Positions 38,520-51,772 of a stretch of 55,913 nucleotides of DNA are shown in pieces. The notes beneath the pieces were generated by a model. It saw nothing but the letters and a program-made list of their open reading frames with translations, made no database searches and was not told the DNA's origin. The position numbers and the translations under genes are program-made. This DNA is from a virus: the IMG/VR virus record IMGVR_UViG_3300044547_001026, positions 1 through 55,913 of that record; one strand, given 5' to 3'. Position 1 is the first letter of the stretch; each line of letters starts with the position of its first letter.

Positions 38520-38532
38520 CAAAAATGACCTT

Positions 38533-38562
38533 AAGCCCCGATTCCCGTCGGGGCTTTTTTTA
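38533..38562 (+). terminator. Intrinsic terminator after the ClpC-like gene
   Basis: AAGCCCCGA (38533-38541) pairs with TCGGGGCTT (38548-38556), followed by a run of T. Confidence 0.85.
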
Positions 38563-38577
38563 TTCCGTAATTTTTCG

Positions 38578-38585
38578 TATATTTG
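38578..38585 (+). promoter_or_regulatory. Host-type promoter -7 box of the lipoprotein gene
   Basis: TATATTTG with the ATG only 5 nt downstream, which implies a leaderless or nearly leaderless transcript. Confidence 0.5.
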
Positions 38586-38590
38586 TAACT

Positions 38591-38767
38591 ATGAGAAAAT
38601 ATACTTTGATTTTCGCAATTATCGCAACAGTTGCGATGACTGCATGTGGTAACGAGTCTACCACATCAACCGAAACAACCGACTCAACTGCAACTGTTGC
38701 TGATACAACAGTTGTTGCTGATTCCGATGCAACACAGGAAACTGTGGATAGCACTGTGAAACAGTAA
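38591..38767 (+). CDS. Small secreted lipoprotein
   Basis: 58 residues. A lipoprotein signal peptide (MRKYTLIFAIIATVAMTACG) puts the lipobox Cys at residue 19. The remaining 39 residues are Thr/Ser/Asp/Val only, without positive charge except the penultimate Lys, and likely form a short disordered tail. It lies directly behind a TATATTTG promoter. Small phage lipoproteins of this type often block receptors against superinfection; that role is inferred from analogy. The longer upstream frame in the same reading frame is not supported. Confidence 0.75.
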   Translation: MRKYTLIFAIIATVAMTACGNESTTSTETTDSTATVADTTVVADSDATQETVDSTVKQ

Positions 38768-38861
38768 TTAAATGAGTGCTCACTACCGTTGGTGGAAATG
38801 TGGGTTAAATGTATTGATTGTGACACCACAGCTCGTTTTTTTAATTTAAAAATTTTAAAAT

Positions 38862-39245
38862 ATGGAATTAATATTAGTAAGGGGTTTACCGGGTTCAGGT
38901 AAATCAACATTCGCAAAATCTTTGGGTTGTCCTTGTTTCGAGGCAGATATGTATTTCATCAACGAAGATGGGGTGTACAACTTTGATGCGTCAAAAATTA
39001 AAATGGCCCATCAATGGTGTAAAGACAGGTTAGTACAACTCATGGAAGTGGACATCAAAAAAATTGCGATATCGAATACATTCACCCAAGAATGGGAAAT
39101 GGATGATTACTATAAATTGGCGGAACAATACGGGTACACCGTGTTTAGTGTTATCGTTGAGAATAGACATAACGGAAAAAATGTTCACGGGGTACCTCAG
39201 GACAAATTAGAAATCATGAAAGAAAGATTTCAAGTGAAACTTTAG
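38862..39245 (+). CDS. P-loop kinase, polynucleotide-kinase-like
   Basis: 127 residues. The P-loop GLPGSGKST is at 8-16. ISNTFTQEWEMDDYYKLAEQ and VIVENRHNGKNVHGVP fit the AAA_33/Pnk-type kinase pattern in which the second Asp helix binds nucleotide and the Arg lid follows. It probably phosphorylates 5'-OH RNA ends. It is 5 nt ahead of an RNA ligase and near a tRNA array, a typical arrangement for repair of tRNAs cut by anticodon nucleases. No separate 3'-phosphatase domain is fused. Confidence 0.8.
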   Translation: MELILVRGLPGSGKSTFAKSLGCPCFEADMYFINEDGVYNFDASKIKMAHQWCKDRLVQLMEVDIKKIAISNTFTQEWEMDDYYKLAEQYGYTVFSVIVENRHNGKNVHGVPQDKLEIMKERFQVKL

Positions 39246-39250
39246 ACATT

Positions 39251-40315
39251 ATGTTAGACATTTTAGAAAGATATCATAAGGATGGTTTGTTACATAAACA
39301 AACCCACCCAACTCTTGATTTGACCATATGGAATTATTCGCCGAAAGTTCAATATGAAAGACTGTGGGATGAGATAACTGTGCAATGTCGTGGTCTTGTT
39401 ACTAACAGTAAAGGTGAAATTGTTGCGAAACCATTCAAAAAGTTCTTCAACTATGAAGAACATAAACCAGAAGAAATACCAAATGAGTATTTTGAGGTTT
39501 ATGAAAAAATGGATGGTTCTTTAGGTATATTATTCAACTATAATGGTGAATGGGTAATGGCAACCCGTGGTTCGTTTATTTCTGAACAATCAGTTAAAGG
39601 TCGTAAGTTACTTGAGAAATATGATTATAATCGGTTACATACCGACTACACTTATTTATTTGAAATAATCTATCCCGAAAATAGAATTGTGTGTGTTTAC
39701 GATTTTGAAGATTTAGTTTTATTGGGTGTAATCCACACAGAAAGTGGTAACGAGGTTAATATTCATAACCTCAATAATGAAGATATCCGATTAAACAACA
39801 TGATTGGTAATTTAGGTTTCAGAGTCGTTACCTTATATAAAACATGGGGTGAAGGATTTGACGTACTGAAAGAAGAAATATCAAAAGATAGAGAAGGATA
39901 CGTTATTCGTTTTAGAAATGGTTTTCGTATGAAAATCAAAGGGGATGAATATGTCCGTTTGCACCGAATATTAACCAATATATCTAATAGAGACATTTGG
40001 GAGTATTTGAAAGATGGTAAACCTATGGATGAAATCTTAGATAAAGTACCCGATGAATTTTACGATTGGGTTAAGAACACCAAAAATGATTTAATTACAC
40101 AATTCAATATATTAGAAAAAGAATATCAATGGATATTCAAAGTAACAAACAGGGTTCACGGTATTGAGAATCGTGCAGTCTTTGCTGAGTACGCAAAAAA
40201 ATACAAACACCCCAACTTATTATTTAATATGTTGGATGGTAAAGACTATTCGCAACAAATATGGAAACTTCTGTACCCAACATATTCAAAACCATTTAAA
40301 AAAGATGAAATATAG
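39251..40315 (+). CDS. RNA ligase (T4 Rnl1-like family)
   Basis: 354 residues. Motif I is EKMDGSL (85-91) with Lys86 the probable adenylated residue. ATRGSF is motif Ia/III-like; EGYVIRF is motif IV and RMKIKGDEY motif V. The N-terminus (LDLTIWNYSPKVQYERLWDE and VQCRGLVTN) matches Rnl1-type ligases of T4-like phages. It joins 5'-phosphate and 3'-hydroxyl RNA ends using ATP, completing repair started by the kinase upstream. Substrates are inferred to be cleaved tRNAs. Confidence 0.92.
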   Translation: MLDILERYHKDGLLHKQTHPTLDLTIWNYSPKVQYERLWDEITVQCRGLVTNSKGEIVAKPFKKFFNYEEHKPEEIPNEYFEVYEKMDGSLGILFNYNGEWVMATRGSFISEQSVKGRKLLEKYDYNRLHTDYTYLFEIIYPENRIVCVYDFEDLVLLGVIHTESGNEVNIHNLNNEDIRLNNMIGNLGFRVVTLYKTWGEGFDVLKEEISKDREGYVIRFRNGFRMKIKGDEYVRLHRILTNISNRDIWEYLKDGKPMDEILDKVPDEFYDWVKNTKNDLITQFNILEKEYQWIFKVTNRVHGIENRAVFAEYAKKYKHPNLLFNMLDGKDYSQQIWKLLYPTYSKPFKKDEI

Positions 40316-40739
40316 AATTTATTTAGACGATGTTAGAACACCAATTAGTCCAAACAATGAATGGGTGGATGGTATTGAGGAATGGACTGTTGTTAGGAAT
40401 TACGTGGAATTCGTAGAGAAAATAACCGAGATTGGTTTGGAGAACATAGAATTAATTTCTTTGGACCACGATTTAGGTGATACCGCAATGGCCGAATGGC
40501 ATCGTAATGTTTATCACAACTATGAGTTGGATTATGATAATATCCTTGAAAAAACCGGAATGGATTGTGTTAAATGGTTGGTTGAAAAATGGATGGATGG
40601 TGAACCCGTGGTTACTGTTGTTGTACACTCGGCAAACGCAATCGGTAGTGGAAATATGATGGGTTATATAAACAATTACCGACACATCAATAAATTACCA
40701 CAAAATTGTATTAGAGTTCAGTGGGAACACACGGTGTAA
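40305..40739 (+). CDS. Putative cyclic-phosphate-processing Receiver-fold protein (cREC-like)
   Basis: 144 residues from the ATG at 40305, which overlaps the ligase stop by 11 nt. YLDDVRTP (6-13), SLDHDLGD (52-59) and VVVHSAN (105-111) keep an Asp pair, a second acidic strand (LDHDLG) and a His-Ser-x-Asn strand on a Receiver-like fold. This fits the family predicted to process 2',3'-cyclic phosphates in RNA-repair operons. The operon order kinase-ligase-cREC supports a complete RNA end-healing set. The family name is recalled and activity is predicted, not demonstrated. Confidence 0.7.
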   Translation: MKYRIYLDDVRTPISPNNEWVDGIEEWTVVRNYVEFVEKITEIGLENIELISLDHDLGDTAMAEWHRNVYHNYELDYDNILEKTGMDCVKWLVEKWMDGEPVVTVVVHSANAIGSGNMMGYINNYRHINKLPQNCIRVQWEHTV

Positions 40740-40746
40740 AAATCGT

Positions 40747-40777
40747 TTGGATAATTTAATTTTTTTAATCACCTTTG
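40747..40777 (+). promoter_or_regulatory. Probable host-type promoter
   Basis: TTG (40747-40749), about 20 nt, then CACCTTTG (40770-40777), one mismatch from TAnnTTTG, upstream of the ATG at 40802. Confidence 0.4.
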
Positions 40778-40801
40778 TACTGAACCAAACAATTTATTAA
40801 A

Positions 40802-41131
40802 ATGGATACAAATACTAACTCAATTGCGACCAAAAAATTATTAATAAAAGGAAAGTATGAAGGTTTTAAAGACTTTTATGATGTTAACAAAATTGTTATT
40901 TACAAAAACATTTTAAAACTTTTTACCAACTTCAAAAAACAAGATAAAGACCAATTAGTTCTTATCATTTCGGCAAAGATTAGTAATTTAGATTGGGAAA
41001 CCGAATTGAAATTTCAAAGAAAAGAGTCCATCGTTTTAGTTCGTGATATCATGCCGTACTTCGAGCAAATCGAAGACTATGAAACATGTGGTCAAATCTG
41101 TGACCTATACAAAAAAATACAATCAGTTTGA
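40802..41131 (+). CDS. Hypothetical protein
   Basis: 109 residues, mixed charge, mainly helical with a beta strand in the centre (QLVLIISAKISNLDWETELK). There is no signal peptide or known motif. The gene has its own promoter-like upstream region. Its 3' end overlaps by 9 nt the end of the convergent lectin-domain gene. Confidence 0.6.
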   Translation: MDTNTNSIATKKLLIKGKYEGFKDFYDVNKIVIYKNILKLFTNFKKQDKDQLVLIISAKISNLDWETELKFQRKESIVLVRDIMPYFEQIEDYETCGQICDLYKKIQSV

Positions 41132-43414
41132 TGAGTGAGATAAGTTTGAATCACCTTTAACAATATACTTTATGTTAAGGGTGACAGAACTTGTCACAAA
41201 ATTTATAGTAAAACTCGTAACGGGTGTTACTGTTTTATAATTTGATGGAGTTATCGAATTAAAATCTGACGCAGTATACCACCACACTTTATCAAACGTA
41301 ATCATACCTGTAAGATTTGCACCAAGTAAGTACGCATCAGGTATGGTAACAACACCGTCATCATTAATGTCACCAGCCCTCATTTTAGGTCCACTGTTCA
41401 AATGTATTCCTGAAAGTGTATTGTTGGGTGTATTTTCATTTTGAGACTCGTTAAACACCAAATCAAAGTCTGATGAAGTTAGTGTTGGCGTAAATGAAGG
41501 TACAACTTTGAAAGTTGCATTATGTTTTGTTGGATTCAATGTATATGTTCCGTTTGTTGCGACCGTTACGGTTTGTAATAATGTGTCCGTAGTACCCACA
41601 ACCAAATATAATTTAACCTGCGGTCTTGTGGATAGTCCAGATGGAATTGTAATTGTACCACTAATTGTTTCAGTTATAATTGAAACCGTACCATTACTAC
41701 TATATGCAAATCCACAAGTACCACTTTGTAATTGTGCTCTAAATAATGTTTTGGTTGTAATGTTTGTATAACTATTACTTGCAGTTGTGTTTGTTATGTC
41801 TGTCCAGTTGACACCGTCATTAGTAGACTTCTGCCATTTAACAATAGTTCCAGTATAACTACTTAATGTCAATGTACCTGAGTTTGTTGTACTCGTGTGA
41901 GTTGCTGATGACACACCACCACCAACAGGGGGTGTTCCCGATGTTACGCTGATAGTTTTAGCACCTGATAATACCGCACTACCACAACTCGGTGTTTGGA
42001 CTTCAACACGATAATAATATGTACCAGCGGAACTTATGGTTTCTGTTAAACTTGTTGTTGTGTTAGAGATATTAGTCCAATTCACGTTGTCCGTTGAGCG
42101 TTGCCATTTATTTACATTACCCTGTTGACCTGATAATGTTAATTCAACTTGACCACCGGCACATATAGAATTATTTGCCGCGAATACCGACCCCGATTTA
42201 GTTGGTTTTACGGTAACATAGACACTTGAGGTTGCCAATCCCGAACAACTAACAGGACTTGATGAATTCACAATTGCTCGGTAATATGTTGTCTTCGTTA
42301 AATTGGTTACCGTTATACTTGTTGATGTACTTGTGATAGTTGTTCCTGCAGTAAAAAAGTTATCGAAAGATGATTCCCATCTAACAACACTACCCGATAA
42401 ATTATTTAATGTTAATGTCGTACTATTACTTCCTGAACATACGTTAACATCACCACCACTTATGTAACCACTTGAAGAGTTACTGACCTCAATATTTCTT
42501 GTTAATATAGTTGTACTCGTTGTTATATCACCCGGCATGTCACCATACTCACAAATATAACCCGGTAGAGTACTATTTGCTAAGTCATTCCATTGACCAC
42601 TATTTGATGAATAGAATTGTCCAAACGCTTCCGAGGTACCATTTGGTTCTCCACCCGCCCATTTATGATACATACCCGATACTAAGGTTGTACTTGGGGT
42701 ATTTCCATTTGAAAAGTTTTGACCTTTTTCAGGACCTGTAACCCAGTGCCACTTTCCTTCTGATGCGGATTGACTCGCATAAACAGTTGAACCCTTTGCA
42801 GTGTTGATATAGTTGTAATCATCCGATGCACCAAACCAAGCATCGTTTGCCATTAATTTCCAAATAAAGTTATTTTCCGCCTCGGATAAAACTGTTGCCA
42901 AATAACCAACCCTTCCGAAGTATGATTTATTACTTGCGTTTGTATATGAATTAGTCCAACTTGTATTACCCGACACATATTCATAAAAGTGTTCGGTTAA
43001 TGGATTATAAAAAACAGTACCTGCAACGAAAGTCACTCTTCTTTGAAGTGCGTAACATGTGGAGGTGGTTGATTTAAATTCAACACCCCTTAATACTGAT
43101 TCCCAATTTGTTGCAGTTGTTGAACCACTAAAAATTAAAACACCCGTTGTGGTATTAAATGATGAAGAAACTCCCGATGGAAGTGTTGCCGTTGACCTTA
43201 ATTGGTCACCACTCGTATATGTTTGAGATATTTGAACTCTAAAACCTGTAATCGTTCCATTTGCGGTTAAAGTTAGATTTGGGTCAACTTTAGTCCACGT
43301 ATTATATGTCGATGAAAGAGCACTCGTACTTGATGTTCCAAGACTAACAGATGTTGCCTGTGAAAAACCTAAGACTGGTAACAATAAAAATAATATGTAT
43401 AGTAGTTTTCTCAT
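41123..43414 (-). CDS. Secreted C-type-lectin / Ig-like / dockerin-like surface protein
   Basis: 763 residues. The signal peptide MRKLLYILFLLLPVLGFSQA is typical of Bacteroidota. A C-type lectin domain covers about 163-290 (YLATVLSEAENNFIWKLMAN, AWFGASDD, KWAGGEPN and SGQWNDL), keeping the EPN (256-258) and WND (275-277) sugar/Ca2+ motifs. Three similar Ig-like domains follow, each with W-Q-x-S-x-D. An SdrD-B-like segment and a dockerin-like Ca2+ loop (GDINDDGVVTIPDAYLL) come next, ending NIKYIVKGDSNLSH. It should be displayed on the cell or virion surface. Its ATG overlaps the upstream barrel gene by 4 nt. Confidence 0.85.
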   Translation of the reverse strand: MRKLLYILFLLLPVLGFSQATSVSLGTSSTSALSSTYNTWTKVDPNLTLTANGTITGFRVQISQTYTSGDQLRSTATLPSGVSSSFNTTTGVLIFSGSTTATNWESVLRGVEFKSTTSTCYALQRRVTFVAGTVFYNPLTEHFYEYVSGNTSWTNSYTNASNKSYFGRVGYLATVLSEAENNFIWKLMANDAWFGASDDYNYINTAKGSTVYASQSASEGKWHWVTGPEKGQNFSNGNTPSTTLVSGMYHKWAGGEPNGTSEAFGQFYSSNSGQWNDLANSTLPGYICEYGDMPGDITTSTTILTRNIEVSNSSSGYISGGDVNVCSGSNSTTLTLNNLSGSVVRWESSFDNFFTAGTTITSTSTSITVTNLTKTTYYRAIVNSSSPVSCSGLATSSVYVTVKPTKSGSVFAANNSICAGGQVELTLSGQQGNVNKWQRSTDNVNWTNISNTTTSLTETISSAGTYYYRVEVQTPSCGSAVLSGAKTISVTSGTPPVGGGVSSATHTSTTNSGTLTLSSYTGTIVKWQKSTNDGVNWTDITNTTASNSYTNITTKTLFRAQLQSGTCGFAYSSNGTVSIITETISGTITIPSGLSTRPQVKLYLVVGTTDTLLQTVTVATNGTYTLNPTKHNATFKVVPSFTPTLTSSDFDLVFNESQNENTPNNTLSGIHLNSGPKMRAGDINDDGVVTIPDAYLLGANLTGMITFDKVWWYTASDFNSITPSNYKTVTPVTSFTINFVTSSVTLNIKYIVKGDSNLSHSSN

Positions 43415-45042
43415 AGATTAACCTTACTACCTATTAAGAAGAAAGATAAAATAGGAATTTCGGGGTTCGAACTTATATTCGCCTTATAATTCATGTTTAT
43501 TTTAAATCTTTTTGAGATTTGATAATCAAATCCACTACCCAAGAATCCACTAAAAAATCTATCGGTTATTGTTACTTGTTCTTTTGTTGAGTAAACCAAC
43601 GGTGTTGACATTACATATAATTCGGGTGACACCATTAATTTTTTACCGACCTTAAACGGTCTGGTGTAAAACGCAGTTACAGATGGTGAATAATAACCAC
43701 TCTTATCTTCTGAAATGATTGATACCGCACCACTTACGTTAAAACCCGTAACACCCCATTTACCTGCGTTTAAAATACCACTATATCCTAAGAAACCAAG
43801 TATATTTCCATAGGTGTATACACCAGTTAGACTAGCGTTATGTATGTACTTTATTGTGTTCTTTTTATTGTAATGTAACTTAGTATATTTTGTCGATATC
43901 GCAAATTGATTAAGATTTGCCCAAATCATAGCGGTCGCCCCGAAACTCGATAAACCTGTCATTGATGACCTGTTTGCACTCAAGTTAAGAATTGGAGTAA
44001 ATGTTTTATTTAAATTTTGTGCGGTTGTTAAATCAGAAGAAACAATCAATGGATTTGAACTACCTGATTTACCACCACCTGATTTACCACCACCTGATTT
44101 ACCACCACCCGATTTACCACCACCTGAACTACCACCACCACTACCATTATCGTTGTGAGCGTCATTATTCATTGTTGTGGTTGCCCCAACCTCTTCATTA
44201 CTTTGACTGTTTGAATTGTTACCCGACCCCGTTCCACCACCTGTTGTACTTCCGCCTGTGGTTCCACCCGAACTACCCGTAGAACTACCATTACCACCGG
44301 TTCCACTTCCACCTGTTGTACTACCGCCAGTTGTTCCTGAACCACCCGTTCCACTTCCTCCTGTTGTACTACCGCCAGTTGTTCCTGAACCACCTACAGG
44401 TGGCTGAGACGAGCCACTTCCCCCTTGAGGTGGGTTACTTGAACCTGTGCTGTTTCCTCCCTGTGTTCCAGTTGAACCTCCCTGAGAAGAATTAGTTCCT
44501 CCAGTCGACCCAGTAGTTCCTCCTGAACCTTGGGATTGACCTCCATTCTCGCCTCCCTGAGAAGACGAACCACTTCCGTTATTGTTATTACCTGACCCAT
44601 TTGAATTTCCATTAGATTGTTTATTCCCATCTTTTTTATTATTCCCACCGGCATTAAGATTACCCCCACTCGATGATGATTGAGCGGATGACATAATACT
44701 ACCAACAACCGATTGTACGGTACTACTAATAATTTGGGATGTGATTTGATTTTGTGTTACTTGACCTTGTTGTTGTGAACATGGGTTTGTTTGACGATAC
44801 TCGGAGTATGTTTGATTAACCCAACTTGAGAATACTCCACTGGCAACATCCGCAGCGGTAAAGTATTGACTTTTATTTAAAAAAAATATTGTAGTACCAC
44901 CTTGTAATGGTACGGTAAAAAGAGTTACTTCTTTTGTACATGGGTCGATAAATGTTTGCACCGACACCTGAGCCTTTATATTCTGACTAAACAGAACAAA
45001 AAAACTTATAAAAAATAATGTCTTTATTGTTTTCCAATACAT
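43411..45042 (-). CDS. Outer-membrane beta-barrel with Gly/Ser/Thr-rich stalk
   Basis: 543 residues. The signal peptide ends QNIKAQ. Residues 25-120 form a small N-terminal domain with two Cys. A long Gly/Ser/Thr/Asn linker spans about 120-340 and ends in four GGGKS units. The last 200 residues have barrel-like strands (LTGVYTYGNILGFLGYSGIL, SPELYVMSTPLVYSTKEQVT) and close with FFLIGSKVNL. An N-terminal domain joined to a barrel by a long flexible linker suggests surface display or a pore partner for the CsgG-like protein encoded next. Function is unproven. Confidence 0.8.
   Translation of the reverse strand: MYWKTIKTLFFISFFVLFSQNIKAQVSVQTFIDPCTKEVTLFTVPLQGGTTIFFLNKSQYFTAADVASGVFSSWVNQTYSEYRQTNPCSQQQGQVTQNQITSQIISSTVQSVVGSIMSSAQSSSSGGNLNAGGNNKKDGNKQSNGNSNGSGNNNNGSGSSSQGGENGGQSQGSGGTTGSTGGTNSSQGGSTGTQGGNSTGSSNPPQGGSGSSQPPVGGSGTTGGSTTGGSGTGGSGTTGGSTTGGSGTGGNGSSTGSSGGTTGGSTTGGGTGSGNNSNSQSNEEVGATTTMNNDAHNDNGSGGGSSGGGKSGGGKSGGGKSGGGKSGSSNPLIVSSDLTTAQNLNKTFTPILNLSANRSSMTGLSSFGATAMIWANLNQFAISTKYTKLHYNKKNTIKYIHNASLTGVYTYGNILGFLGYSGILNAGKWGVTGFNVSGAVSIISEDKSGYYSPSVTAFYTRPFKVGKKLMVSPELYVMSTPLVYSTKEQVTITDRFFSGFLGSGFDYQISKRFKINMNYKANISSNPEIPILSFFLIGSKVNL
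44061..44127 (-). repeat. In-frame 15-bp tandem repeat (KSGGG units)
   Basis: Four to five near-perfect 15-bp copies encoding Lys-Ser-Gly-Gly-Gly at the end of the Gly/Ser linker of the barrel protein. Copy-number change would keep the frame and alter stalk length. Confidence 0.8.
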
Positions 45043-45046
45043 AATA

Positions 45047-45054
45047 ATAAATAC
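45047..45054 (-). promoter_or_regulatory. Candidate phage late-promoter motif
   Basis: Minus-strand GTATTTAT, 4 nt before the barrel-protein ATG and just after the terminator of the CsgG-like gene. Confidence 0.45.
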
Positions 45055-45060
45055 TAAAAA

Positions 45061-45078
45061 GGGGGTTATTAACCCCCC
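45061..45078 (-). terminator. Intrinsic terminator after the CsgG-like gene
   Basis: GGGGGTTA pairs with TAACCCCC; on the minus strand a run of five T follows. Confidence 0.8.
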
Positions 45079-45110
45079 AAATTTTTAATTATCAATAATA
45101 AAAAATAACA

Positions 45111-45878
45111 TTAATTAGGAAAAACACCCTTCTTAATCATCCTAAGTAGGATTCTACTACATGCGATGTCCAATGATTTTTTTGTTGCGATTCCAATTGT
45201 TGATTGGTTGAATTTTACTTCACTTAGATTATCATCGTTTAATAAACTTAATTCTCTTACCGTCGTCGCCTCACCCAAACCACTAGCACCAATAATGGCA
45301 CCCGTTTCTGCGTCTGTGAATCGAACTTGCATACCAATACGAGTTGTTACAGTATTTTTAACTCCATTTGCCATGTTTACTGTTTCATCTTCACTAACAG
45401 AATAATCATATAGTTCAATTGTAACAAAGTAATGTGCCAAACGTATTTTACCTCTACCGTTTAAAGTATCTTGGGAAATACCCGCTTGAGATGCTTGGAA
45501 TTGTTTTACCATTCTATTCTTAATCTCTGTTTTATCCTCAGTGAAAATAAAACGATTAAGATTCTCAAGATATTCAAGTGTCATATTCGCAACACCCAAA
45601 CCAACTTTCTTTTCCTTTAGTTCAGGGTATAGTTCATATACCTCATCACTAATACCGATTTTTAATATCTGTATTGGAATTTGAGGTCCCTCATAATCCA
45701 TTAAAGAATCGATATTAACACTGGTTTCAAAAGATGCCTTATATTGTTCTGTTTGTGTTTTACCGATAGTTTGTGCGGTTGCCTTATTGGCAAACGCAAA
45801 CATTAAAAGAAACCATAAGATAACAACCATGATTGGCATCAAATATTGTTTTACTTTATCGTTATTTAATAGTTTCAT
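45111..45878 (-). CDS. CsgG-like secretion-channel protein
   Basis: 255 residues. An unusually long N-terminal signal (MVVILWFLLMFAFANKATAQ) is followed by the CsgG-fold order. That order is GVANMTLEYLENLNRFIF, then KQFQASQAGISQDTLNGRG, IRLAHYFVTIELYDYSV, a transmembrane-hairpin-like stretch TTRIGMQVRFTDAETGAIIG and a final helix (SLDIACSRILLRMIKKGVF). Cellular CsgG forms a nonameric outer-membrane pore for curli. Here no lipobox Cys is present, unlike E. coli CsgG. Stop and start are separated by 1 nt from the upstream small membrane gene. It may form a pore for the phage's surface proteins or for lysis. Confidence 0.75.
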   Translation of the reverse strand: MKLLNNDKVKQYLMPIMVVILWFLLMFAFANKATAQTIGKTQTEQYKASFETSVNIDSLMDYEGPQIPIQILKIGISDEVYELYPELKEKKVGLGVANMTLEYLENLNRFIFTEDKTEIKNRMVKQFQASQAGISQDTLNGRGKIRLAHYFVTIELYDYSVSEDETVNMANGVKNTVTTRIGMQVRFTDAETGAIIGASGLGEATTVRELSLLNDDNLSEVKFNQSTIGIATKKSLDIACSRILLRMIKKGVFPN

Positions 45879-45879
45879 A

Positions 45880-46434
45880 TTATAAACTGCCTTCTTCTTT
45901 TATTTTTCCGCACTTTAAACATTCTTCTTCACCATCTCCGTCAGCATCACCCCAAACGTGTTCACACTGTCTGTGGTCAAAATACTCATCGATGATTCCG
46001 TCGTTGTCAAAGTCTAATCCGTCCATAACACCATCTCCATCTTCATCGATTTCAACACCTTTTTTGGCAACTTGGACAGGTTGTTCAAGTTCCTCGATTA
46101 TGGGTGACGATGTTGGTCCACTTGGTATATCAGACGTGTTTGATATCGAAATACCGTCCTCCTCATCCATTTTCTGAACTAACATTTTATCCTTATCGGT
46201 ATCACTAAACCAATAGTCAATGATTTTCCCGTAAGAACCAATAAATGCACCTAATAAAAGGAGTAAAAGTTCTTTCCACTCTCCTTCAATTGGTGATTTG
46301 GAGAATATCGCAAAAAACATTCCGCCAACGATGAACATGAACCCACCTAATACTAAAGCGGTAATGTACCATCTTCTACGCATCATTGCATATAATAATT
46401 GCTTAAATCCGTCTGGTTGTTGTGTATTTGACAT
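45880..46434 (-). CDS. Holin-like membrane protein with Ca2+-binding-repeat tail
   Basis: 184 residues. Two transmembrane helices (WYITALVLGGFMFIVGGMFF; EWKELLLLLLGAFIGSYGKI) resemble phage 3TM-type holins. The C-terminal tail has thrombospondin-type Asp repeats (DEDGDGVMDGLDFDNDGIID, DADGDGEEE) and a Cys-His-Cys-Cys set that may bind metal. The Asp-rich tail on a membrane protein is unusual. It sits between the CsgG-like gene and another small membrane gene in the same operon. Its role could be lysis timing or assembly of the envelope module. Confidence 0.65.
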   Translation of the reverse strand: MSNTQQPDGFKQLLYAMMRRRWYITALVLGGFMFIVGGMFFAIFSKSPIEGEWKELLLLLLGAFIGSYGKIIDYWFSDTDKDKMLVQKMDEEDGISISNTSDIPSGPTSSPIIEELEQPVQVAKKGVEIDEDGDGVMDGLDFDNDGIIDEYFDHRQCEHVWGDADGDGEEECLKCGKIKEEGSL

Positions 46435-46458
46435 ATTTCTTTTTTTTACTTTAAATTA

Positions 46459-46779
46459 TTACCATTTTGGCTCTTCAGCCGCAAATTCGTCTTTTTTCTT
46501 TTCTTTAGGTTTTTCAGCTGGTGCTGATGCCGCTGGTTTTTCAACAACTCTTTCAATCACTTTGGTTGTACCACCTGATTGTTGTTGTTGGTTAGCGTTA
46601 CTGTTAGTAATGTTAATAACGGGTGCTGCTTGTTGAACTGGTTGTGCTTCTTCAGCACCTCCACCTAACATTGTTGCGAACCATGTACCGGCGCCTAATA
46701 CTGCTGTTGACAATACACCGATTATGGTTTTTTTAAGTCCTGTCCAAGTTCCTTCTTGTTCTTGTGTTTCTTCGCTCAT
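46459..46779 (-). CDS. Single-pass membrane protein with Pro/Ala/Lys-rich tail
   Basis: 106 residues. One hydrophobic segment (IIGVLSTAVLGAGTWFATML) follows a charged N-terminus. The tail contains INITNSNANQQQQSG, then VIERVVEKPAASAPAEKPKE and an acidic end, likely spanning the periplasm in extended form like TonB-type or spanin-like linkers. It lies between the holin-like and T9SS-sorted genes. Function unknown. Confidence 0.65.
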   Translation of the reverse strand: MSEETQEQEGTWTGLKKTIIGVLSTAVLGAGTWFATMLGGGAEEAQPVQQAAPVINITNSNANQQQQSGGTTKVIERVVEKPAASAPAEKPKEKKKDEFAAEEPKW

Positions 46780-46783
46780 AAGT

Positions 46784-48691
46784 TTAGAGTTTTATAAATT
46801 GTTTTGTTAATTGGTTATTTTGATTGTTTAATACTAAATAGTAGTGACCCGTACTTGATGATGTCATGTCAATTTGTTTGTATCCCACTGTGGAACCTTG
46901 ACCTGAAATTTCACCAATGTGTTTCACCAATCTACCTTGCATATCATAAATACTACCATTTAACTTAATATTCGGGTCGGGGAAAAGAACCTCAATCTCA
47001 AACCATCCTGTTACTGGATTTGGTCTAATAAGTGCGCTAATTTCTTTAAATTCACCGGGTAAAGTGGTTGGTGACATTTTATAGAAAAGTGTGGTCACTT
47101 GACTTGCTAAGTTTATTTCCAAATGGTCACCGTTATTATCAGATGCATCCATTAATTTTCTCACATAAATGTTTGTACTAACATCAACATTACCAATTGG
47201 ACTAAATTTTATTTTAAATGGAGTGTGTGAACCAACCAATCCGTCTTTTTGTTGGTTGTTCATACCACCGAATCTGATGGTTCCCGCGGCCTCATCATGA
47301 GTTAAGTATTGTAACCAAGGACCACCATTAAAGTTGGAAACTATTTCATCAAATTTAACCTTTGTTTTATCGTACTTCATCTCAAACTGTAAACCGTAGT
47401 TTTGGTCACCATTTGTGTTGATGTTAAATGGAACATACATTGGTTGTCCAAGTGATGATGTATTAGGAATTTCAACATCTAATTTACCTTTATAAACCGC
47501 CTTAGCAACTAATACACCTGAACTGTTATAAACAGGAGATGAATAAGTTCTATCAACGTCACCTAATACAAAGTACTTAATATCGATGTTAGTTAAGTTA
47601 GTGGTACCAATACTATCCACAACATAATTGTATGCGGTTGAGTGGTTTGTCCATTCTGTCCATTGGTTAGCGCCTAACACTAATGAATCAAATACATTTC
47701 TGTGGAATGCGTGAATCATTGTGGTTGTGTCAATCTTTTTAAGACCACTTATGTTTGCGTAAATCAAATAAGGGTCACCACCATCGATTTTACCGTTTTT
47801 GTTAACATCACCAATCAAATACGCCAAACCATGTTTCAAGTAGTTTTGTGATGGTGTTTGACTAACATCGGTAACCGAATATTCATCATATGTTTTAACC
47901 GCATCAGATATAGTAACACCATAATCTCTAATAGTAGTCATACTATCTGCTGGGAATCTTACTGTTAATTTATATTTTGTATTTTTATCTACGTTGTTAA
48001 GAGAGTAAAGACCTGCAGTATCCACTTGTTGTGAAGATACAAATTCACCTGTGTTAAATTTAGTACAAATGATTGTAGGTCTCATTCCAACACCTACCAT
48101 AGTAGGTGGTAACCATACTTTACCACTAATAACCAAGTTACCCAAAAGTTCAAGATGCATATCCTGTACGTTCAAGGTCGCAATGTTATCACCAATTGTG
48201 GTACCATCAAATTTGAACATACGAGCCCAGTTAATTTCAAGACTATCCGCGTTGAAGTTTGATGTAACATCATTTATGATAAATTTGTTATGTATTAAGA
48301 AAGTATCCGCAGTAATCTGAGAACCACTTGATAATACTAAGTAATTTCTGGCAACAGTGTAGTTAGTATCGGTTGCATATGTGTACGAACTTGTACTTGA
48401 GTTGTAACCCGAATACTTGTAGTCATTAAAGAACTTAATAGACAACGAAGGGGTCATACTACTAACGGTAGCGTCAACAGTTGTTGATACGTGAGTAAAA
48501 AGTTGTTTTCTATATTGAAAATCAACTTGGAAGGTTCTTATGTCCACAGATGACGATGCGTCATATTTGAACACCACATCTAATGTGTCTCCTCTTTTAA
48601 TGGTTTTATAGGCAACTGGGTTACCTATACCTTGTGCAAATGCCGACGATGATGTAATTAATACAACAAGGGCTAAAATTAGTTTTTTCAT
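46784..48691 (-). CDS. Cohesin/dockerin-like surface protein with T9SS C-terminal sorting domain
   Basis: 635 residues. The signal peptide is MKKLILALVVLITSSSAFAQ. An N-terminal cohesin-like beta domain (about 22-180) is followed by an SdrD-B-like domain, a dockerin-like loop GDVNKNGKIDGGDPYLIY, the phrase IDIKYFVLGDVDRTYSSP shared with the lectin protein, and a second cohesin-like domain (YVPFNINTNGDQNYGLQFEM, KFDEIVSNFNGGPW). The last about 80 residues (IRPNPVTGWFEIEV, GSIYDMQGRLVKHIG, TGHYYLVLNN, LTKQFIKL) match the T9SS type A sorting domain. It should cross the inner membrane by Sec and the outer membrane by host T9SS. Its start overlaps the upstream gene by 4 nt. Confidence 0.85.
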   Translation of the reverse strand: MKKLILALVVLITSSSAFAQGIGNPVAYKTIKRGDTLDVVFKYDASSSVDIRTFQVDFQYRKQLFTHVSTTVDATVSSMTPSLSIKFFNDYKYSGYNSSTSSYTYATDTNYTVARNYLVLSSGSQITADTFLIHNKFIINDVTSNFNADSLEINWARMFKFDGTTIGDNIATLNVQDMHLELLGNLVISGKVWLPPTMVGVGMRPTIICTKFNTGEFVSSQQVDTAGLYSLNNVDKNTKYKLTVRFPADSMTTIRDYGVTISDAVKTYDEYSVTDVSQTPSQNYLKHGLAYLIGDVNKNGKIDGGDPYLIYANISGLKKIDTTTMIHAFHRNVFDSLVLGANQWTEWTNHSTAYNYVVDSIGTTNLTNIDIKYFVLGDVDRTYSSPVYNSSGVLVAKAVYKGKLDVEIPNTSSLGQPMYVPFNINTNGDQNYGLQFEMKYDKTKVKFDEIVSNFNGGPWLQYLTHDEAAGTIRFGGMNNQQKDGLVGSHTPFKIKFSPIGNVDVSTNIYVRKLMDASDNNGDHLEINLASQVTTLFYKMSPTTLPGEFKEISALIRPNPVTGWFEIEVLFPDPNIKLNGSIYDMQGRLVKHIGEISGQGSTVGYKQIDMTSSSTGHYYLVLNNQNNQLTKQFIKL

Positions 48692-49188
48692 AGTAGTTTA
48701 TCGAGTAAGTTTATTGTTGTTTTCTTTATTGCAGAACTTGCGGATTCTTGATTGAATTTACCTCCCTCATCAATAATGATTGTTGAAGTTGATATTTCAG
48801 TCGATTTACCTTCCGCAAATTCAGTTTTAATTTTTTTATCTCCTTTATAGAGAACACCCTTCATTCTAATGACGGTGGTACTTTTATCTTGGTGAAATAC
48901 AGCAATTCCTGATTTAGTATTGACGATATCAAAGAATATTAATTCAACCTGTATTGAGTATTCGGCCTTTTCTTTTACCCCAATCAAGACCAAACTATCT
49001 TGTTCATTTATTATTTCTTGAACAATGTTTTTTACTCCAAACGCCAAATTTTTGTTACCAACAAGAGTACCAACACGGATGTTGTTAATCACGGGTTCAA
49101 CAAAAATAGTCGGTCCTGTCTGAGCAGTTACGCTCAAAAAGGGACATAGGAATAGCACAGAAAAAATTATACTTTTGATAAGTCTCAT
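48688..49188 (-). CDS. Secreted CsgG-fold-like protein
   Basis: 166 residues. The signal peptide MRLIKSIIFSVLFLCPFLSV ends with TAQ. The mature part (AFGVKNIVQEIINEQDSLVL, EKAEYSIQVELIFFDIVNTK, FNQESASSAIKKTTINLLDK) has a strand/helix order reminiscent of the CsgG core but lacks the pore hairpin region, so it is shorter than the protein at 45111. It could be a periplasmic partner. The assignment is weaker than for the longer protein. Confidence 0.55.
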   Translation of the reverse strand: MRLIKSIIFSVLFLCPFLSVTAQTGPTIFVEPVINNIRVGTLVGNKNLAFGVKNIVQEIINEQDSLVLIGVKEKAEYSIQVELIFFDIVNTKSGIAVFHQDKSTTVIRMKGVLYKGDKKIKTEFAEGKSTEISTSTIIIDEGGKFNQESASSAIKKTTINLLDKLL

Positions 49189-49212
49189 GGTTAAACAGTG
49201 GAATAAATTAGA

Positions 49213-49473
49213 TTATTCAGAGATTTCGTCTTCCGATTTTTTATTCTTGTTGTTAATCCACTTATCGACAGATGCGATACCGAATGAACCTAACGTGATT
49301 ACTAAAAATCCGTCAAAGATAAATTCGTTAATTAGTAATTCTTTACCCATCCAACCTGTAATAAGGTCAACGAATAGAGAGATTACCATCATGAGAAACG
49401 CGATGAATCCCACTACTGATTTCTCGTTAATTGTGTTGTTATCGTTAAATAACTGGCTGAAAAATTTTTTCAT
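49213..49473 (-). CDS. Small two-helix membrane protein
   Basis: 86 residues. Two hydrophobic segments (SVVGFIAFLMMVISLFVDLI; FIFDGFLVITLGSFGIASVD) with a short charged N-terminus and a Lys/Glu-rich tail. It is the first gene of the minus-strand envelope operon, behind a late-type motif at 49511-49519. Holin-like size and topology, but no specific family. Confidence 0.65.
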   Translation of the reverse strand: MKKFFSQLFNDNNTINEKSVVGFIAFLMMVISLFVDLITGWMGKELLINEFIFDGFLVITLGSFGIASVDKWINNKNKKSEDEISE

Positions 49474-49510
49474 AGTTGTAGTTTGTGTTTGTTTTTATGT
49501 TTGGTTATCA

Positions 49511-49519
49511 ATAAATATC
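49511..49519 (-). promoter_or_regulatory. Candidate phage late-promoter motif of the envelope operon
   Basis: Minus-strand GATATTTAT, 37 nt upstream of the first gene of the 41-49 kb operon, which suggests late expression of the surface module. Confidence 0.45.
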
Positions 49520-49594
49520 CCGGCAAAGTGTTAAGGAAAAAAAATTCGAGAAAATCAAGTCTAAAAAAATTTTATATCTTTTTTGATACTTTTC

Positions 49595-49625
49595 TTTGTT
49601 TTTTGCATACTTATTGTTATCTTTG
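49595..49625 (+). promoter_or_regulatory. Host-type promoter (TTTG-N19-TATCTTTG)
   Basis: TTTG at 49595-49598 and TATCTTTG at 49618-49625, both fully matching the Bacteroidota consensus. It starts a short unit with a 29-codon ORF and a terminator, and then the tRNA array. Confidence 0.7.
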
Positions 49626-49656
49626 TAAAAGATTTAAAAACTAAATAAAAAATTCA

Positions 49657-49746
49657 ATGACACGCAACACACATACAATGTCGTTTACTATCTGTTCGAA
49701 ATGGGCGGAAGTGATTGATATTGCCATGTCTCGAGGTGTCTTGTAA
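49657..49746 (+). CDS. Possible 29-residue peptide in a mini transcription unit
   Basis: ATG at 49657 to TAA at 49744-49746 encodes 29 residues (begins MTRNTHTMSFTIC, ends AMSRGVL). It lies 31 nt after a perfect host-type promoter and 29 nt before a strong terminator, so a discrete short transcript is likely. Whether the peptide is translated or the RNA itself acts is open. No homologue is recognised. Confidence 0.4.
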   Translation: MTRNTHTMSFTICSKWAEVIDIAMSRGVL

Positions 49747-49775
49747 GTTGTTTAGTTTTAAAACGATATTAAAGG

Positions 49776-49805
49776 AACCTCGAGAGAAATCTCGGGGTTT
49801 TTTTT
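49776..49805 (+). terminator. Intrinsic terminator ahead of the tRNA array
   Basis: AACCTCGAGA pairs over 10 bp with TCTCGGGGTT around a GAAA loop, followed by about eight T. It ends the short unit that begins at 49595. Confidence 0.85.
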
Positions 49806-49811
49806 GTTTTA

Positions 49812-49884
49812 GGGCTGTTGGTATAGTTGGCTAACACACGACATTTGCACTGTCGAATCCCCGGTTCGAAGCCGGGACGGTCCA
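49812..49884 (+). tRNA. tRNA-Ala(TGC)
   Basis: Cloverleaf with acceptor GGGCTGT/ACGGTCC, anticodon stem CGACA/TGTCG and loop TTTGCAC giving anticodon TGC. No CCA is encoded. Confidence 0.9.
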
Positions 49885-49889
49885 CAAAG

Positions 49890-49901
49890 TGTTCTTTGAC
49901 A
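49890..49901 (+). promoter_or_regulatory. boxA-like antitermination site 1
   Basis: TGTTCTTTGACA between tRNA-Ala and tRNA-Phe, matching the bacterial boxA pattern TGYTCTTTRANA bound by NusB-S10 in rRNA leaders. Confidence 0.6.
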
Positions 49902-49915
49902 TATTGGTTTAATTT

Positions 49916-49988
49916 GGTACCGTAGCTCAGTTGGTAGAGCGTCGCCCTGAAGAGGCGAGCGTCACTGGTTCGAATCCGGTCGGTACCA
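49916..49988 (+). tRNA. tRNA-Phe(GAA)
   Basis: Acceptor GGTACCG/CGGTACC is perfect; anticodon stem TCGCC/GGCGA, loop CTGAAGA, anticodon GAA. Confidence 0.93.
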
Positions 49989-49993
49989 CATTT

Positions 49994-50067
49994 GTCTCCG
50001 TAGCTCAGTTGGTTAGAGCACCTCACTTTTAATGAGGGAGTCACGCGTTCGAGTCGCGTCGGGGACA
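49994..50067 (+). tRNA. tRNA-Lys(TTT)
   Basis: Acceptor GTCTCCG/CGGGGAC; anticodon stem CCTCA/TGAGG, loop CTTTTAA, anticodon TTT. Confidence 0.93.
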
Positions 50068-50203
50068 CAAAGGTTGATTGGGGAATGATTATGTCGATAG
50101 TTCGAGAGTGAATACTGACTGACATAATCGGAGTTTGGAGGTGTTCACCTAAGTAATGCCAATCATAAAAGTAGATGTCCACTGAACCATCTTCTACTTT
50201 CCT
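50068..50203 (+). ncRNA. Structured non-tRNA segment with three-way-junction potential
   Basis: The segment between tRNA-Lys and tRNA-Val can fold into an outer stem TGATTGG (50075-50081) with CCAATCA (50159-50165). This encloses a perfect 9-bp arm GATTATGTC (50087-50095) with GACATAATC (50121-50129) and a small hairpin AGGT-GTTC-ACCT (50139-50150). A further hairpin AAGTAGA/TCTACTT follows near 50169-50199. No ORF is convincing. It may be a separate small RNA or a processing element in the tRNA transcript. Confidence 0.5.
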
Positions 50204-50209
50204 TTATTT

Positions 50210-50282
50210 AGTTCCGTAGCTCAGTTGGGAGAGCATCTGCCTTACATGCAGAGGGTCACTGGTTCGAACCCAGTCGGAACTA
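50210..50282 (+). tRNA. tRNA-Val(TAC)
   Basis: Acceptor AGTTCCG/CGGAACT perfect; anticodon stem TCTGC/GCAGA, loop CTTACAT, anticodon TAC. Confidence 0.93.
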
Positions 50283-50290
50283 CAAATACA

Positions 50291-50364
50291 CATGGGTGTG
50301 GTGCAATGGTTAGCATAAGAGTCTCCAAAACTTTTGATGGGAGTTCGAGTCTCTCCACCCGTGC
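50291..50364 (+). tRNA. tRNA-Trp(CCA)
   Basis: Acceptor CATGGGT/ACCCGTG with one wobble; anticodon stem AGAGT/ACTTT, loop CTCCAAA, anticodon CCA. Confidence 0.85.
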
Positions 50365-50384
50365 AAACTTTAAAAACAAATAAC

Positions 50385-50813
50385 ATGGAAAGAGATGACA
50401 ACATCGATGCCGTCAAAATGAGATTTGAGGCGGAGAAAATGAAATTAAGGGAAGAAAGGGAAAAAACAATTAAACAGTATTGGGAAAATTTACCAAAACT
50501 TAATAATCCTGAAGATGTACCAACACTCCCAAGAGTTGATGAAAAACAATGGAGGGAGTTTTATGTCCCAAAATTAATCGAAGCGGGAGCAATCCCAAAA
50601 AATGATTTAATTCATGGTCAAATTTATATTGGTGAACATAGAAACACAACCATCGCAAGATGGAATCAAGAAACAGATAAATTTGTACACATGAGATATA
50701 AGTTTGGTTGGAGAGAAGATGAATGTAATCACTTTGAGGATGATAATGGATTTGCGTTGTTTGTACCAATTAGATTGGGTACACAAGAAGAATGGGATGA
50801 AAGAATTAAATAA
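50385..50813 (+). CDS. Hypothetical protein inside the tRNA array
   Basis: 142 residues from the ATG at 50385; an earlier in-frame start would lie inside tRNA-Trp and is rejected. A charged helical N-terminus (AVKMRFEAEKMKLREEREKT) leads to a middle with Pro and Trp (LPRVDEKQWREFYVPKLIEA) and a beta-rich end (FVHMRYKFGWREDECNHFED). No motif recognised. It sits between tRNA-Trp and tRNA-Arg and may be expressed from the tRNA transcript. Confidence 0.6.
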   Translation: MERDDNIDAVKMRFEAEKMKLREEREKTIKQYWENLPKLNNPEDVPTLPRVDEKQWREFYVPKLIEAGAIPKNDLIHGQIYIGEHRNTTIARWNQETDKFVHMRYKFGWREDECNHFEDDNGFALFVPIRLGTQEEWDERIK

Positions 50814-50820
50814 TTAAGTT

Positions 50821-50894
50821 ACTCTCGTAGTTCAATGGATTAGAACATTTCACTACGGATGAAAGGGTTGGGAGTTCGAGTCTCTCCGAGAGTA
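50821..50894 (+). tRNA. tRNA-Arg(ACG)
   Basis: Acceptor ACTCTCG/CGAGAGT perfect; anticodon stem TTTCA/TGAAA, loop CTACGGA, anticodon ACG. Decoding of CGN would require A34-to-inosine editing by host TadA. Confidence 0.9.
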
Positions 50895-50899
50895 CGATA

Positions 50900-50971
50900 A
50901 GGTCAGTTTGGTCGTGGAGGCCGGTTAGTCTGCAAAATTAACGGAGTTGGTTCGATTCCAACATTGACCTC
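50900..50971 (+). tRNA. tRNA-Cys(GCA)
   Basis: Acceptor AGGTCAG/TTGACCT with wobble; anticodon stem TTAGT/ATTAA with one G-T, loop CTGCAAA, anticodon GCA. Confidence 0.85.
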
Positions 50972-50976
50972 AATAT

Positions 50977-51051
50977 GGTGGATATAGTTCAGTTGGTTAG
51001 AACGTCTGATTGTGGTTCAGAAGGTCGCCGGTTCGAATCCGGTTATTCACC
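50977..51051 (+). tRNA. tRNA-His(GTG)
   Basis: G at 50977 is the encoded G-1 that pairs with the C discriminator. Acceptor GTGGATA/TATTCAC, anticodon stem TCTGA/TCAGA, loop TTGTGGT, anticodon GTG. Confidence 0.9.
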
Positions 51052-51057
51052 CCATAT

Positions 51058-51131
51058 TGGAATATAACTCAGTTGGTTAGAGTGTCATCCTGATACGGTG
51101 AAAGTCGGTGGTTCGAGTCCACCTATTCCAA
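51058..51131 (+). tRNA. tRNA-Ile(GAT)
   Basis: Acceptor TGGAATA/TATTCCA perfect; anticodon stem TCATC/GGTGA, loop CTGATAC, anticodon GAT. Confidence 0.9.
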
Positions 51132-51138
51132 CAAACAT

Positions 51139-51212
51139 TGCGGGGTGGTCTGGAGAGGTTCCAGCTCGGTCTCATAAGCCGAATCACGTGGGTTCGATTC
51201 CCACTCCCGCAA
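51139..51212 (+). tRNA. tRNA-Met(CAT) or tRNA-Ile2
   Basis: Acceptor TGCGGGG/TCCCGCA; anticodon stem TCGGT/GCCGA, loop CTCATAA, anticodon CAT. The three G-C pairs of initiator anticodon stems are absent, so it is elongator Met or a lysidine-modified Ile2; sequence alone does not decide. Confidence 0.88.
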
Positions 51213-51225
51213 CTTTTTAAAAACA

Positions 51226-51257
51226 TTTTGAAGTGTGACTTTTATTATGTATATTTG
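51226..51257 (+). promoter_or_regulatory. Host-type promoter inside the tRNA array
   Basis: TTTTG (51226-51230), 19-nt spacer, TATATTTG (51250-51257): a full match to the Bacteroidota promoter, placed before tRNA-Thr and immediately followed by a boxA-like site. Confidence 0.75.
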
Positions 51258-51260
51258 AAA

Positions 51261-51272
51261 TGTTCTTTGATT
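51261..51272 (+). promoter_or_regulatory. boxA-like antitermination site 2
   Basis: TGTTCTTTGATT, 3 nt after the -7 box at 51250 and 4 nt before tRNA-Thr. Confidence 0.55.
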
Positions 51273-51276
51273 TAAT

Positions 51277-51350
51277 GCCTCCTTAGCTCAGTTGGCCGGA
51301 GCGCCTCACTTGTAATGAGGATGTCGGCGGTTCGAATCCGTCAGGAGGCT
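51277..51350 (+). tRNA. tRNA-Thr(TGT)
   Basis: Acceptor GCCTCCT/AGGAGGC perfect; anticodon stem CCTCA/TGAGG, loop CTTGTAA, anticodon TGT. The discriminator T is followed by an encoded CCA. Confidence 0.93.
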
Positions 51351-51355
51351 CCATT

Positions 51356-51428
51356 GGTCCCGTGGTTGAATGGTTACAATTCCACCCTGTCACGGTGCGA
51401 GGTACGGGTTCGAATCCCGTCGGGACCG
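51356..51428 (+). tRNA. tRNA-Asp(GTC)
   Basis: Acceptor GGTCCCG/CGGGACC perfect; loop CTGTCAC gives anticodon GTC; first anticodon-stem pair is a C-C mismatch, the other four pair. Confidence 0.9.
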
Positions 51429-51640
51429 CGTTGAGTAAGAGATACTCACTAAGTTTGGTAACGTTCTTTCAAGATGTTATAGTTGTCGCCTTCCACAACT
51501 TTAAAGAGGAGGTCGTCGGAGTATGGTCGTAACAAAACCACCGAGTATGTTTGACGTTTATGTGCGGGTAAGACCGTCTCGTGTTTTCAATACGAAAACA
51601 GAAGAAAAATCTACTCATTGGAATCTCAGGTGGGAAAATT
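51429..51640 (+). ncRNA. 212-nt structured spacer between tRNA-Asp and tRNA-Ser
   Basis: No convincing ORF. Several perfect hairpins are visible: TGAGTA/TACTCA (51432-51448), AGTTGT/ACAACT (51481-51500), a two-part stem TCGG..TGGT/ACCACCGA (51516-51544) and TGTTTTC/GAAAACA (51582-51600). The density of paired arms is higher than expected for neutral spacer and suggests a folded RNA excised with the tRNAs. Identity unknown. Confidence 0.45.
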
Positions 51641-51726
51641 GGAAGGATGGCAGAGTTGGTCTATCGCATCGGTCTTGAAAACCGAAGTACTGAAAGGTAC
51701 CGTGGGTTCGAATCCTACTCCTTCCG
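51641..51726 (+). tRNA. tRNA-Ser(TGA)
   Basis: Acceptor GGAAGGA/TCCTTCC perfect; anticodon stem TCGGT/ACCGA, loop CTTGAAA, anticodon TGA; long variable arm (AGTACTGAAAGGTAC) as expected for Ser. Confidence 0.93.
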
Positions 51727-51737
51727 CAAACGATTGT

Positions 51738-51749: not shown

Positions 51750-51772
51750 AATTAAAAACAAAATTAAAAGAT

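Follow-up and report, generated by a model that had tools for sequence, protein, structure and literature searches.

What would a phage gain from a run of adjoining genes whose predicted products reach from the inner membrane of its host, through a CsgG-like protein and an outer-membrane barrel, to a sugar-binding protein at the cell surface? The question is raised by a 55.9-kb IMG/VR virus record (IMGVR_UViG_3300044547_001026; 'the window' throughout), in which portal, TerL, protease and major head protein genes are present and whose TerL resembles that of T4-type phages. Eight consecutive open reading frames (ORFs) on its minus strand, which we number in transcription order from g1 (49213-49473) to g8 (41123-43414), had been described in a sequence-only reading as an envelope and surface-display module that might build a surface structure or exporter on the infected cell, or be used in lysis. 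Here we find that this gene set recurs in many viral contigs and that an endolysin gene lies in or beside it in many of them. We tentatively propose, as a reading whose probability falls just short of even, that g1-g8 serve T4-like Bacteroidota phages as an envelope-wide egress (lysis) module, through which the infected cell comes to display a lectin scaffold.

The eight-gene block recurs across viral contigs

The order and coordinates of the block held up on inspection, and the genes adjoin closely, with intergenic gaps in transcription order of 24, -4, 4, 24, 1, 68 and -4 nucleotides (nt), and hence a range of -4 to 68 nt. Leaders ending in AQ or SQ are present, as previously noted, on the products of the five ORFs at 48688, 46784, 45111, 43411 and 41123, that of g7 being visible by eye and falling below the hydropathy threshold used. 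The remaining three genes, g1, g4 and g5, had been called small membrane proteins, and by hydropathy each product has one or two hydrophobic segments. Misassembly with a bacterial contig, which had been named as a finding that would undo this description, is unlikely because two IMG/VR loci, one from record 3300042363 and one from 3300042545, match window positions 37114-53878 with 100% identity; the gene set also recurs.

We gathered relatives of g6 in viral contigs (the best 80 of 524 matching stretches) and of g2 (the best 80 of 178), and ran profiles of the eight genes on 159 loci, among which g6 was matched in 137, g3 in 152 and g4 in 140. The g1-g8 set was found in 158 loci, which de-replicated to 63 clusters (the first set). 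A second set of 160 loci, drawn with two distant queries and searched with unchanged profiles, gave 56 clusters, or 53 once three that overlapped the first set were dropped, bringing the gene set to 116 de-replicated IMG/VR contig clusters in all. The exact order of the window is found in 8 of the 63 first-set clusters, and g2-g3-g4-g6-g7 stand in that order in 42 of the 47 first-set clusters showing all five; second-set clusters often have g2 and g8 elsewhere within the block. We conclude that g1-g8 are a real and widely conserved phage module and not a product of chance.

The sequence-only reading had proposed looking for the same gene order in other phages, and beyond the 63 and 53 clusters most of the set is present in an isolate. 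A g6 search of 50,697 phage records returned only Flavobacterium phage immuto (four records, 52% identity), recorded from Flavobacterium sp. LMO8. In this phage gp013, deposited as lectin C-type, corresponds to g8; gp014 and gp015 to g3 in two parts (gp015 is deposited as cohesin; BLAST of g3 against gp015, 1.9e-11); gp016 to g4 (52% identity across 44 residues); gp017 to g6; gp018 to g7; and gp019 to g2. The g1 homologue, gp192, stands outside the module, directly before the endolysin gp191; next comes gp190 (Pfam holin). No g5 homologue was found in immuto by sequence and profile searches, and neither tblastn of g5 nor a near-identity search of the window gave a match in phage records. The search in bacterial genomes yielded three matches, of which L162 and L163, judged by the genes they carry, are taken to be phage contigs and L164 to be bacterial; a bacterial donor of the module was not found, nor was one found in 57 other relatives of the L164 genome.

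An endolysin lies in or beside the module in many relatives

We regarded a gene as near the module when it lay within 3 kb, and the endolysin cluster counts are lower bounds, as many loci end within the flank. An endolysin of the GH19 family (PHROG_181, 3e-69) was near the module in 32 of the 63 first-set clusters, on the same strand in all of them and with a median gap of 127 nt. As a control, we ranked by family 1,478 non-module ORFs of at least 60 residues within 3 kb, leaving out nested ORFs. The endolysin was the commonest non-module family, followed by a lipoprotein (30/63), an approximately 200-residue membrane-anchored protein (19/63) and a short protein with a transmembrane segment and a coiled coil (11/63); an opposite-strand ORF in 14 of 63 clusters was taken as an artefact over g4, and no further family exceeded 10. 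In the second set the endolysin again came first: counting both strands, 24 of 56 clusters have it, and on the module's strand 20 of the 53 new clusters do.

Its position varies. Relative to g2-g8 the first set shows five placements (before g2, after g8, and between g5 and g6, g4 and g6, or g3 and g4), and in 5 of 11 immuto-type new clusters g1 and the endolysin directly follow the module. On a quick tree of g6, the alternation between an endolysin near the module and none requires at least seven changes, and its position, scored in coarse classes, at least five among rows with an endolysin or nine when 'none' is counted. Within the window's own clade (support 94), one cluster (L030) has the endolysin between g5 and g6, and in immuto a second gene deposited as an endolysin, gp236, lies 5.7 kb downstream of the module. 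Within the searches made, this recurrent linkage of the module to an endolysin is new. The suggestion of a use in lysis now stands on firmer ground than the sequence alone gave it, because relatives repeatedly carry an endolysin within the block or next to it; it is borne out in part, and the window has no endolysin of the gp191 type.

g6 has a predicted CsgG fold and g7 a predicted outer-membrane barrel

g6 (45111..45878, minus strand) encodes a 255-residue secreted protein. Against its AlphaFold2 model (predicted local distance difference test (pLDDT) 73.6, predicted TM-score (pTM) 0.62), the top 19 Foldseek matches in the Protein Data Bank (PDB) were all CsgG, with a best E of 7.4e-6 and TM-scores of 0.35-0.52. 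By VIA, CsgG (Z 12.2, root-mean-square deviation (rmsd) 2.9, 155 residues aligned) was followed by Cj1090c (Z 10.2), PelC (9.7) and LptE (about 8.5). The Pfam CsgG profile (PF03783) matched none of 17 g6 family members and none of eight phage contigs, the g6 profile matched no PDB sequence at E up to 1, and hhalign of g6 against 31 CsgG sequences gave 0.9% (E 0.062), though the alignment was colinear. The sole sequence bridge to CsgG is a bacterial g6 relative in L164, 35% identical, at 28.0 bits against a cut-off of 20.8. The modelling thus supports a CsgG fold for g6, with a pore unproven.

A CsgG-like export pore, as the sequence-only reading had it, is not favoured by the details. The fold is alike, but there is no CsgG profile match and no lipobox, the leader ending NKATAQ-TIGK without a Cys and a lipidated N-terminus being absent. 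Hairpin 1 is also more charged, at 34% against 14% in CsgG, and alternating hydropathy is 1.06 against 1.63 in hairpin 1 and 1.53 against 1.83 in hairpin 2, all with hairpin boundaries set by hand. Nor were curli partners found: a Pfam search of the eight proteins, taken to an E of 1, matched none of CsgA, CsgB, CsgE and CsgF, though divergent versions could escape. A canonical curli system is rejected on this search and on the hhalign comparisons with CsgG, in which g2 reached 0.2%.

g2 (48688..49188, minus strand) encodes a 166-residue secreted protein whose leader ends TAQ. Compared by hhalign with the g6 family it scored moderately (54% probability, E 1.3e-4), and it is tied to g6 because the g2 profile (1.8e-8) and the g6 profile (1.2e-7) each match the second CsgG-like protein of L164. 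Its sequence marks g2 as probably a distant sister of g6 and a second CsgG-fold protein. The claim of two such proteins therefore stands for g6, on AlphaFold2, Foldseek and VIA, and is carried over to g2 from profile comparisons. In L164 itself (7986-11856), from an Ignavibacteriales metagenome-assembled genome, the CsgG-like genes form a tandem pair, the first with a lipobox, and are followed by a gene whose large secreted product weakly matches transglutaminase and TPR; the pair is possibly the cellular counterpart of g6 and g2.

g7 (43411..45042, minus strand) is predicted to comprise an N-terminal domain, a helix (89-124), a disordered linker (125-327) and a 12-stranded outer-membrane barrel (about 332-541). 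The AlphaFold2 model has a pLDDT of 66.1, about 88 in the barrel part, and a pTM of 0.50. VIA found NalP as the best match (Z 22.8, rmsd 2.9, 228 aligned) and placed NalP and EspP ahead of FapF, and Foldseek gave FapF as the best match (E 9.4e-6). As other porins are also close, only the barrel class of g7 is firm, and the position of a lumenal helix comes from a single model with a pTM of 0.50. The outer-membrane barrel first read from the sequence is in this way backed by the model, by VIA and by Foldseek. As in FapF and the translocators of type V autotransporters, the g7 model places a helix ahead of a barrel of 12 strands. An N-terminal region and a linker are also known from FapF; g7 is set apart by the stretch of about 200 disordered residues that separates its helix from its barrel, a small N-terminal domain and no recognised passenger.

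A proposed lectin scaffold with either of two anchors

g3 (46784..48691, minus strand) encodes a 635-residue secreted scaffold with a leader ending FAQ, a dockerin-like loop (seen by eye), a cohesin-like domain and a C-terminal sorting domain of the type IX secretion system (T9SS). The last is matched by Pfam Por_Secre_tail (8.3e-8, 32.9 bits, cut-off 27), and with a signal peptide and a C-terminal sorting domain g3 has, by sequence, what defines a T9SS cargo. At E up to 0.1, its family (n=32) has Cohesin in 18 members, the T9SS tail in 10 and PA14 in one. g8 (41123..43414, minus strand) encodes a 763-residue secreted protein with a C-type lectin domain (EPN, WND) and a dockerin-like C-terminal part. 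In the window, Pfam Lectin_C matches g8 with an E of 0.0017, below the cut-off; in its family (n=25 including the window, E up to 0.1) Lectin_C is found in 23 members (best 9.4e-7), Dockerin_1 in 13, Cohesin in 4, Ig-like domains in 2 and PA14 in 1. Of 55 distinct g8 proteins longer than 400 residues, 54 retain the EPN...W[ND]D motif, a signature of Ca-dependent mannose-type binding, and no T9SS tail was found in any g8 of that length in the clusters examined. What had been called a T9SS-sorted cohesin/dockerin protein thus keeps its T9SS tail, the cohesin and dockerin matches falling in relatives and not in the window's proteins; likewise, the lectin assignment holds for the family through Lectin_C and the motif, with the window's own g8 below the Pfam cut-off.

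Clusters whose g3 has no T9SS tail mostly carry a gene for a small lipoprotein in the block, usually before g4. In 53 clusters of the first set we found the tail only in 18, the lipoprotein only in 34, neither in 1 and both in none; the corresponding figures in 36 second-set clusters are 13, 16, 7 and none. The lipoprotein domain and the T9SS tail appear to be homologous, because the lipoprotein profile drifts onto the tail of g3, which it matches in three clusters; hhalign of the two gave 84% (E 7.4e-6), and Pfam Por_Secre_tail matched three of seven lipoproteins below its cut-off (E 0.016-0.025). At least two acidic residues follow the Cys in 24 of 48 lipoproteins, against 2 of 40 in a background that is rough, some Cys positions having been mispicked by the script. 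These residues resemble K-(D/E)2, the surface-export signal described in the abstract of PMC5080379. Of all the observations, the either/or anchor argues most strongly that g3 has to get to the outer membrane or the surface. The proposal that the infected cell displays the module's products is supported in part.

Small membrane proteins and neighbouring genes

g1 (49213..49473, minus strand; 86 residues, two hydrophobic segments by hydropathy) is a holin-like, lysis-associated candidate and adjoins the endolysin in several relatives. g4 (46459..46779, minus strand; 106 residues) has one hydrophobic segment, a Q/P-rich tail and a conserved KW end. g5 (45880..46434, minus strand; 184 residues) has two hydrophobic segments and a topology that may be holin-like. 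Its membrane core of about 40 residues is almost invariant; after it come DxDxDG repeats that resemble calcium loops and a tail rich in Cys and His, and g5 has no family match.

Several neighbours merit mention. An approximately 200-residue, N-terminally membrane-anchored protein, with family members in 33 loci (L127:6359-6976), has, in one lineage, g1 on one side and the endolysin on the other; several members end in GYYYKL, and the family is a candidate for a new type of spanin. Leader-bearing proteins that by eye resemble secreted DNA/RNA endonucleases occur near far-off endolysins (L198, L199, L200; L160:9935-10513; L296:12579-13214), 15 of 56 clusters of the second set have one endonuclease-like family as a neighbour of the module, and in immuto a gene deposited as a nuclease stands just before the lectin gene. 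In the 310-kb relative of the window, two tandem genes next to the endolysin encode leader-bearing proteins that are CAP-domain-like by eye (L198:5542-6651). In the window, an array of 20 tRNA genes (49812-54421) lies directly upstream of g1-g8 on the other strand, and a glycosyltransferase-like gene (PHROG 7162, 9.5e-42) occupies 6431-7651.

Discussion

The conserved gene set, the predicted folds of g6 and g7, the T9SS tail, the lectin motif, the either/or anchor and the linkage to an endolysin in relatives are the observations from which we infer the cell location of the products, their physical assembly, their late expression and the final outcome. In the egress module that we propose, g1, g4 and g5 would be inner-membrane parts, g2 and g6 a periplasmic CsgG-fold pair and g7 a barrel in the outer membrane whose linker is long and flexible, the six forming a trans-envelope assembly that may act together with the endolysin. 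The g3 scaffold, kept on the outer surface by its T9SS tail or a partner lipoprotein, would carry g8 as a Ca-dependent sugar-binding lectin. The outer membrane and surface glycan layer could in this way be opened, or released progeny kept from sticking to debris. A more specific version, which we consider unlikely, is a further, surface-directed stage of lysis in which the anchored cohesin-type scaffold and C-type lectin are tied to a periplasmic CsgG-fold ring and the barrel, opening or shielding the outer membrane and glycan coat and replacing spanins or going beyond them.

The same surface features could serve an end apart from lysis. A lectin scaffold might mask receptors and so exclude superinfection, or aggregate cells or particles in sibling capture, with the endolysin nearby only through late-gene clustering; we regard such surface remodelling as possible but doubtful. 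It sits well with the T9SS tail or the lipoprotein with acidic residues after its Cys (with the rough background given above), with the near-invariant EPN/WND motif of g8 and with PA14 in one relative each of g3 and g8, and like roles have been proposed for pelagiphage curli in the excerpts of PMC7029224 and PMC9599517. It accounts poorly for the endolysin being the commonest neighbour in both sets, at differing positions, and for g1 standing beside endolysins. That the two nearest Foldseek folds, CsgG for g6 and FapF for g7, are both amyloid-secretion proteins speaks instead for a dedicated exporter, in which a CsgG-like pore of g6 and g2 or a FapF- or autotransporter-like channel of g7 would secrete g8 or a fibre along the lines of type VIII secretion. 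It is favoured as well by g8, which carries a signal peptide and, in the proteins examined, no T9SS tail. Against this idea, which we hold improbable, are the more charged hairpins of g6, its missing lipobox, the want of a curlin repeat, CsgE or CsgF by Pfam, and the ranking by VIA of NalP and EspP above FapF. Virion parts or an assembly artefact seem scarcely credible: lectin and Ig-like domains are found in phage virions, but five of the products have Sec-type leaders, and the gene set is present in 116 clusters and an isolate and on identical contigs.

Several observations weigh against an egress module. The window holds no gp191-like endolysin, none was found in the flanks examined of seven of the eight clusters of its clade, and on three contigs of that clade (G060, G061 and G250) the endolysin is at least tens of kb away with no g1-g8 homologues beside it. 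About 27 kb separate gp191 and the module in immuto, and three second-set clusters have the endolysin within 3 kb on the opposite strand. Late-gene clustering would weaken the argument from linkage, and it was probed by the neighbour ranking alone. Upstream of g1 there is no exact T4-type late promoter, and TATAAATA occurs 12 times in the window against 7.9 expected. Family-profile searches matched g1, g4 and g5 to no holin family. On the g6 tree (51 rows), 19 of 47 inner branches are weak, and the either/or anchor rests on few events, because as few as four changes of anchor type are needed, with a g3 length above 625 residues standing in for the T9SS tail. Finally, we know of no lysis system that includes a T9SS-exported lectin.

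How far is such a module foreshadowed? Spanin lysis cassettes share with it predicted inner-membrane, periplasmic and outer-membrane parts and, in many relatives, linkage to an endolysin; they differ in that no spanin is recognised among g1-g8 and in that a surface lectin and scaffold are added here. According to an excerpt of PMC12596118, Bacteroidetes phages exclusively use unimolecular spanins. CsgG together with CsgF is described in pelagiphages and in a methylophage, Melnitz, with sibling capture or lysis timing as proposed roles, in the passages available from PMC7029224, PMC9004378 and PMC9599517, so a phage CsgG alone is not new. Those phages, some of them T4-like, also have secreted CsgG-fold proteins; as far as these passages go, theirs are recognisable CsgG accompanied by CsgF and in some by curlin repeats, whereas g6 belongs to a distinct sequence family, lacks CsgF and curlins by Pfam, and is joined to a T9SS/cohesin/lectin scaffold and a barrel. 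A cryoconite phage has three variable genes with T9SS type A sorting domains, one of them a PA14 gene (PMC7468147, in the part excerpted); phage-borne T9SS sorting domains are common to both, which here belong to a conserved multi-gene block instead. We found no paper describing the g1-g8 block in the open-licence PubMed Central (PMC) literature, and PMC7077304, searched for these words, contains none of immuto, cohesin and lectin. The combination of CsgG-like, cohesin/dockerin and lectin proteins, which the sequence-only reading had thought undescribed, was likewise not found in print there.

Taken together, our results suggest that the module helps virus particles to exit through the outer membrane and the surface coat. 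To our knowledge, how Bacteroidota phages breach the outer membrane and capsule is poorly studied, and a module that recurs with an endolysin supplies concrete, testable candidates for egress, most of them present in immuto. If the proposal is true, these phages make organised use, while infecting, of the T9SS or the surface-lipoprotein route of their hosts, and more than one phage group may have recruited CsgG-fold proteins around egress.

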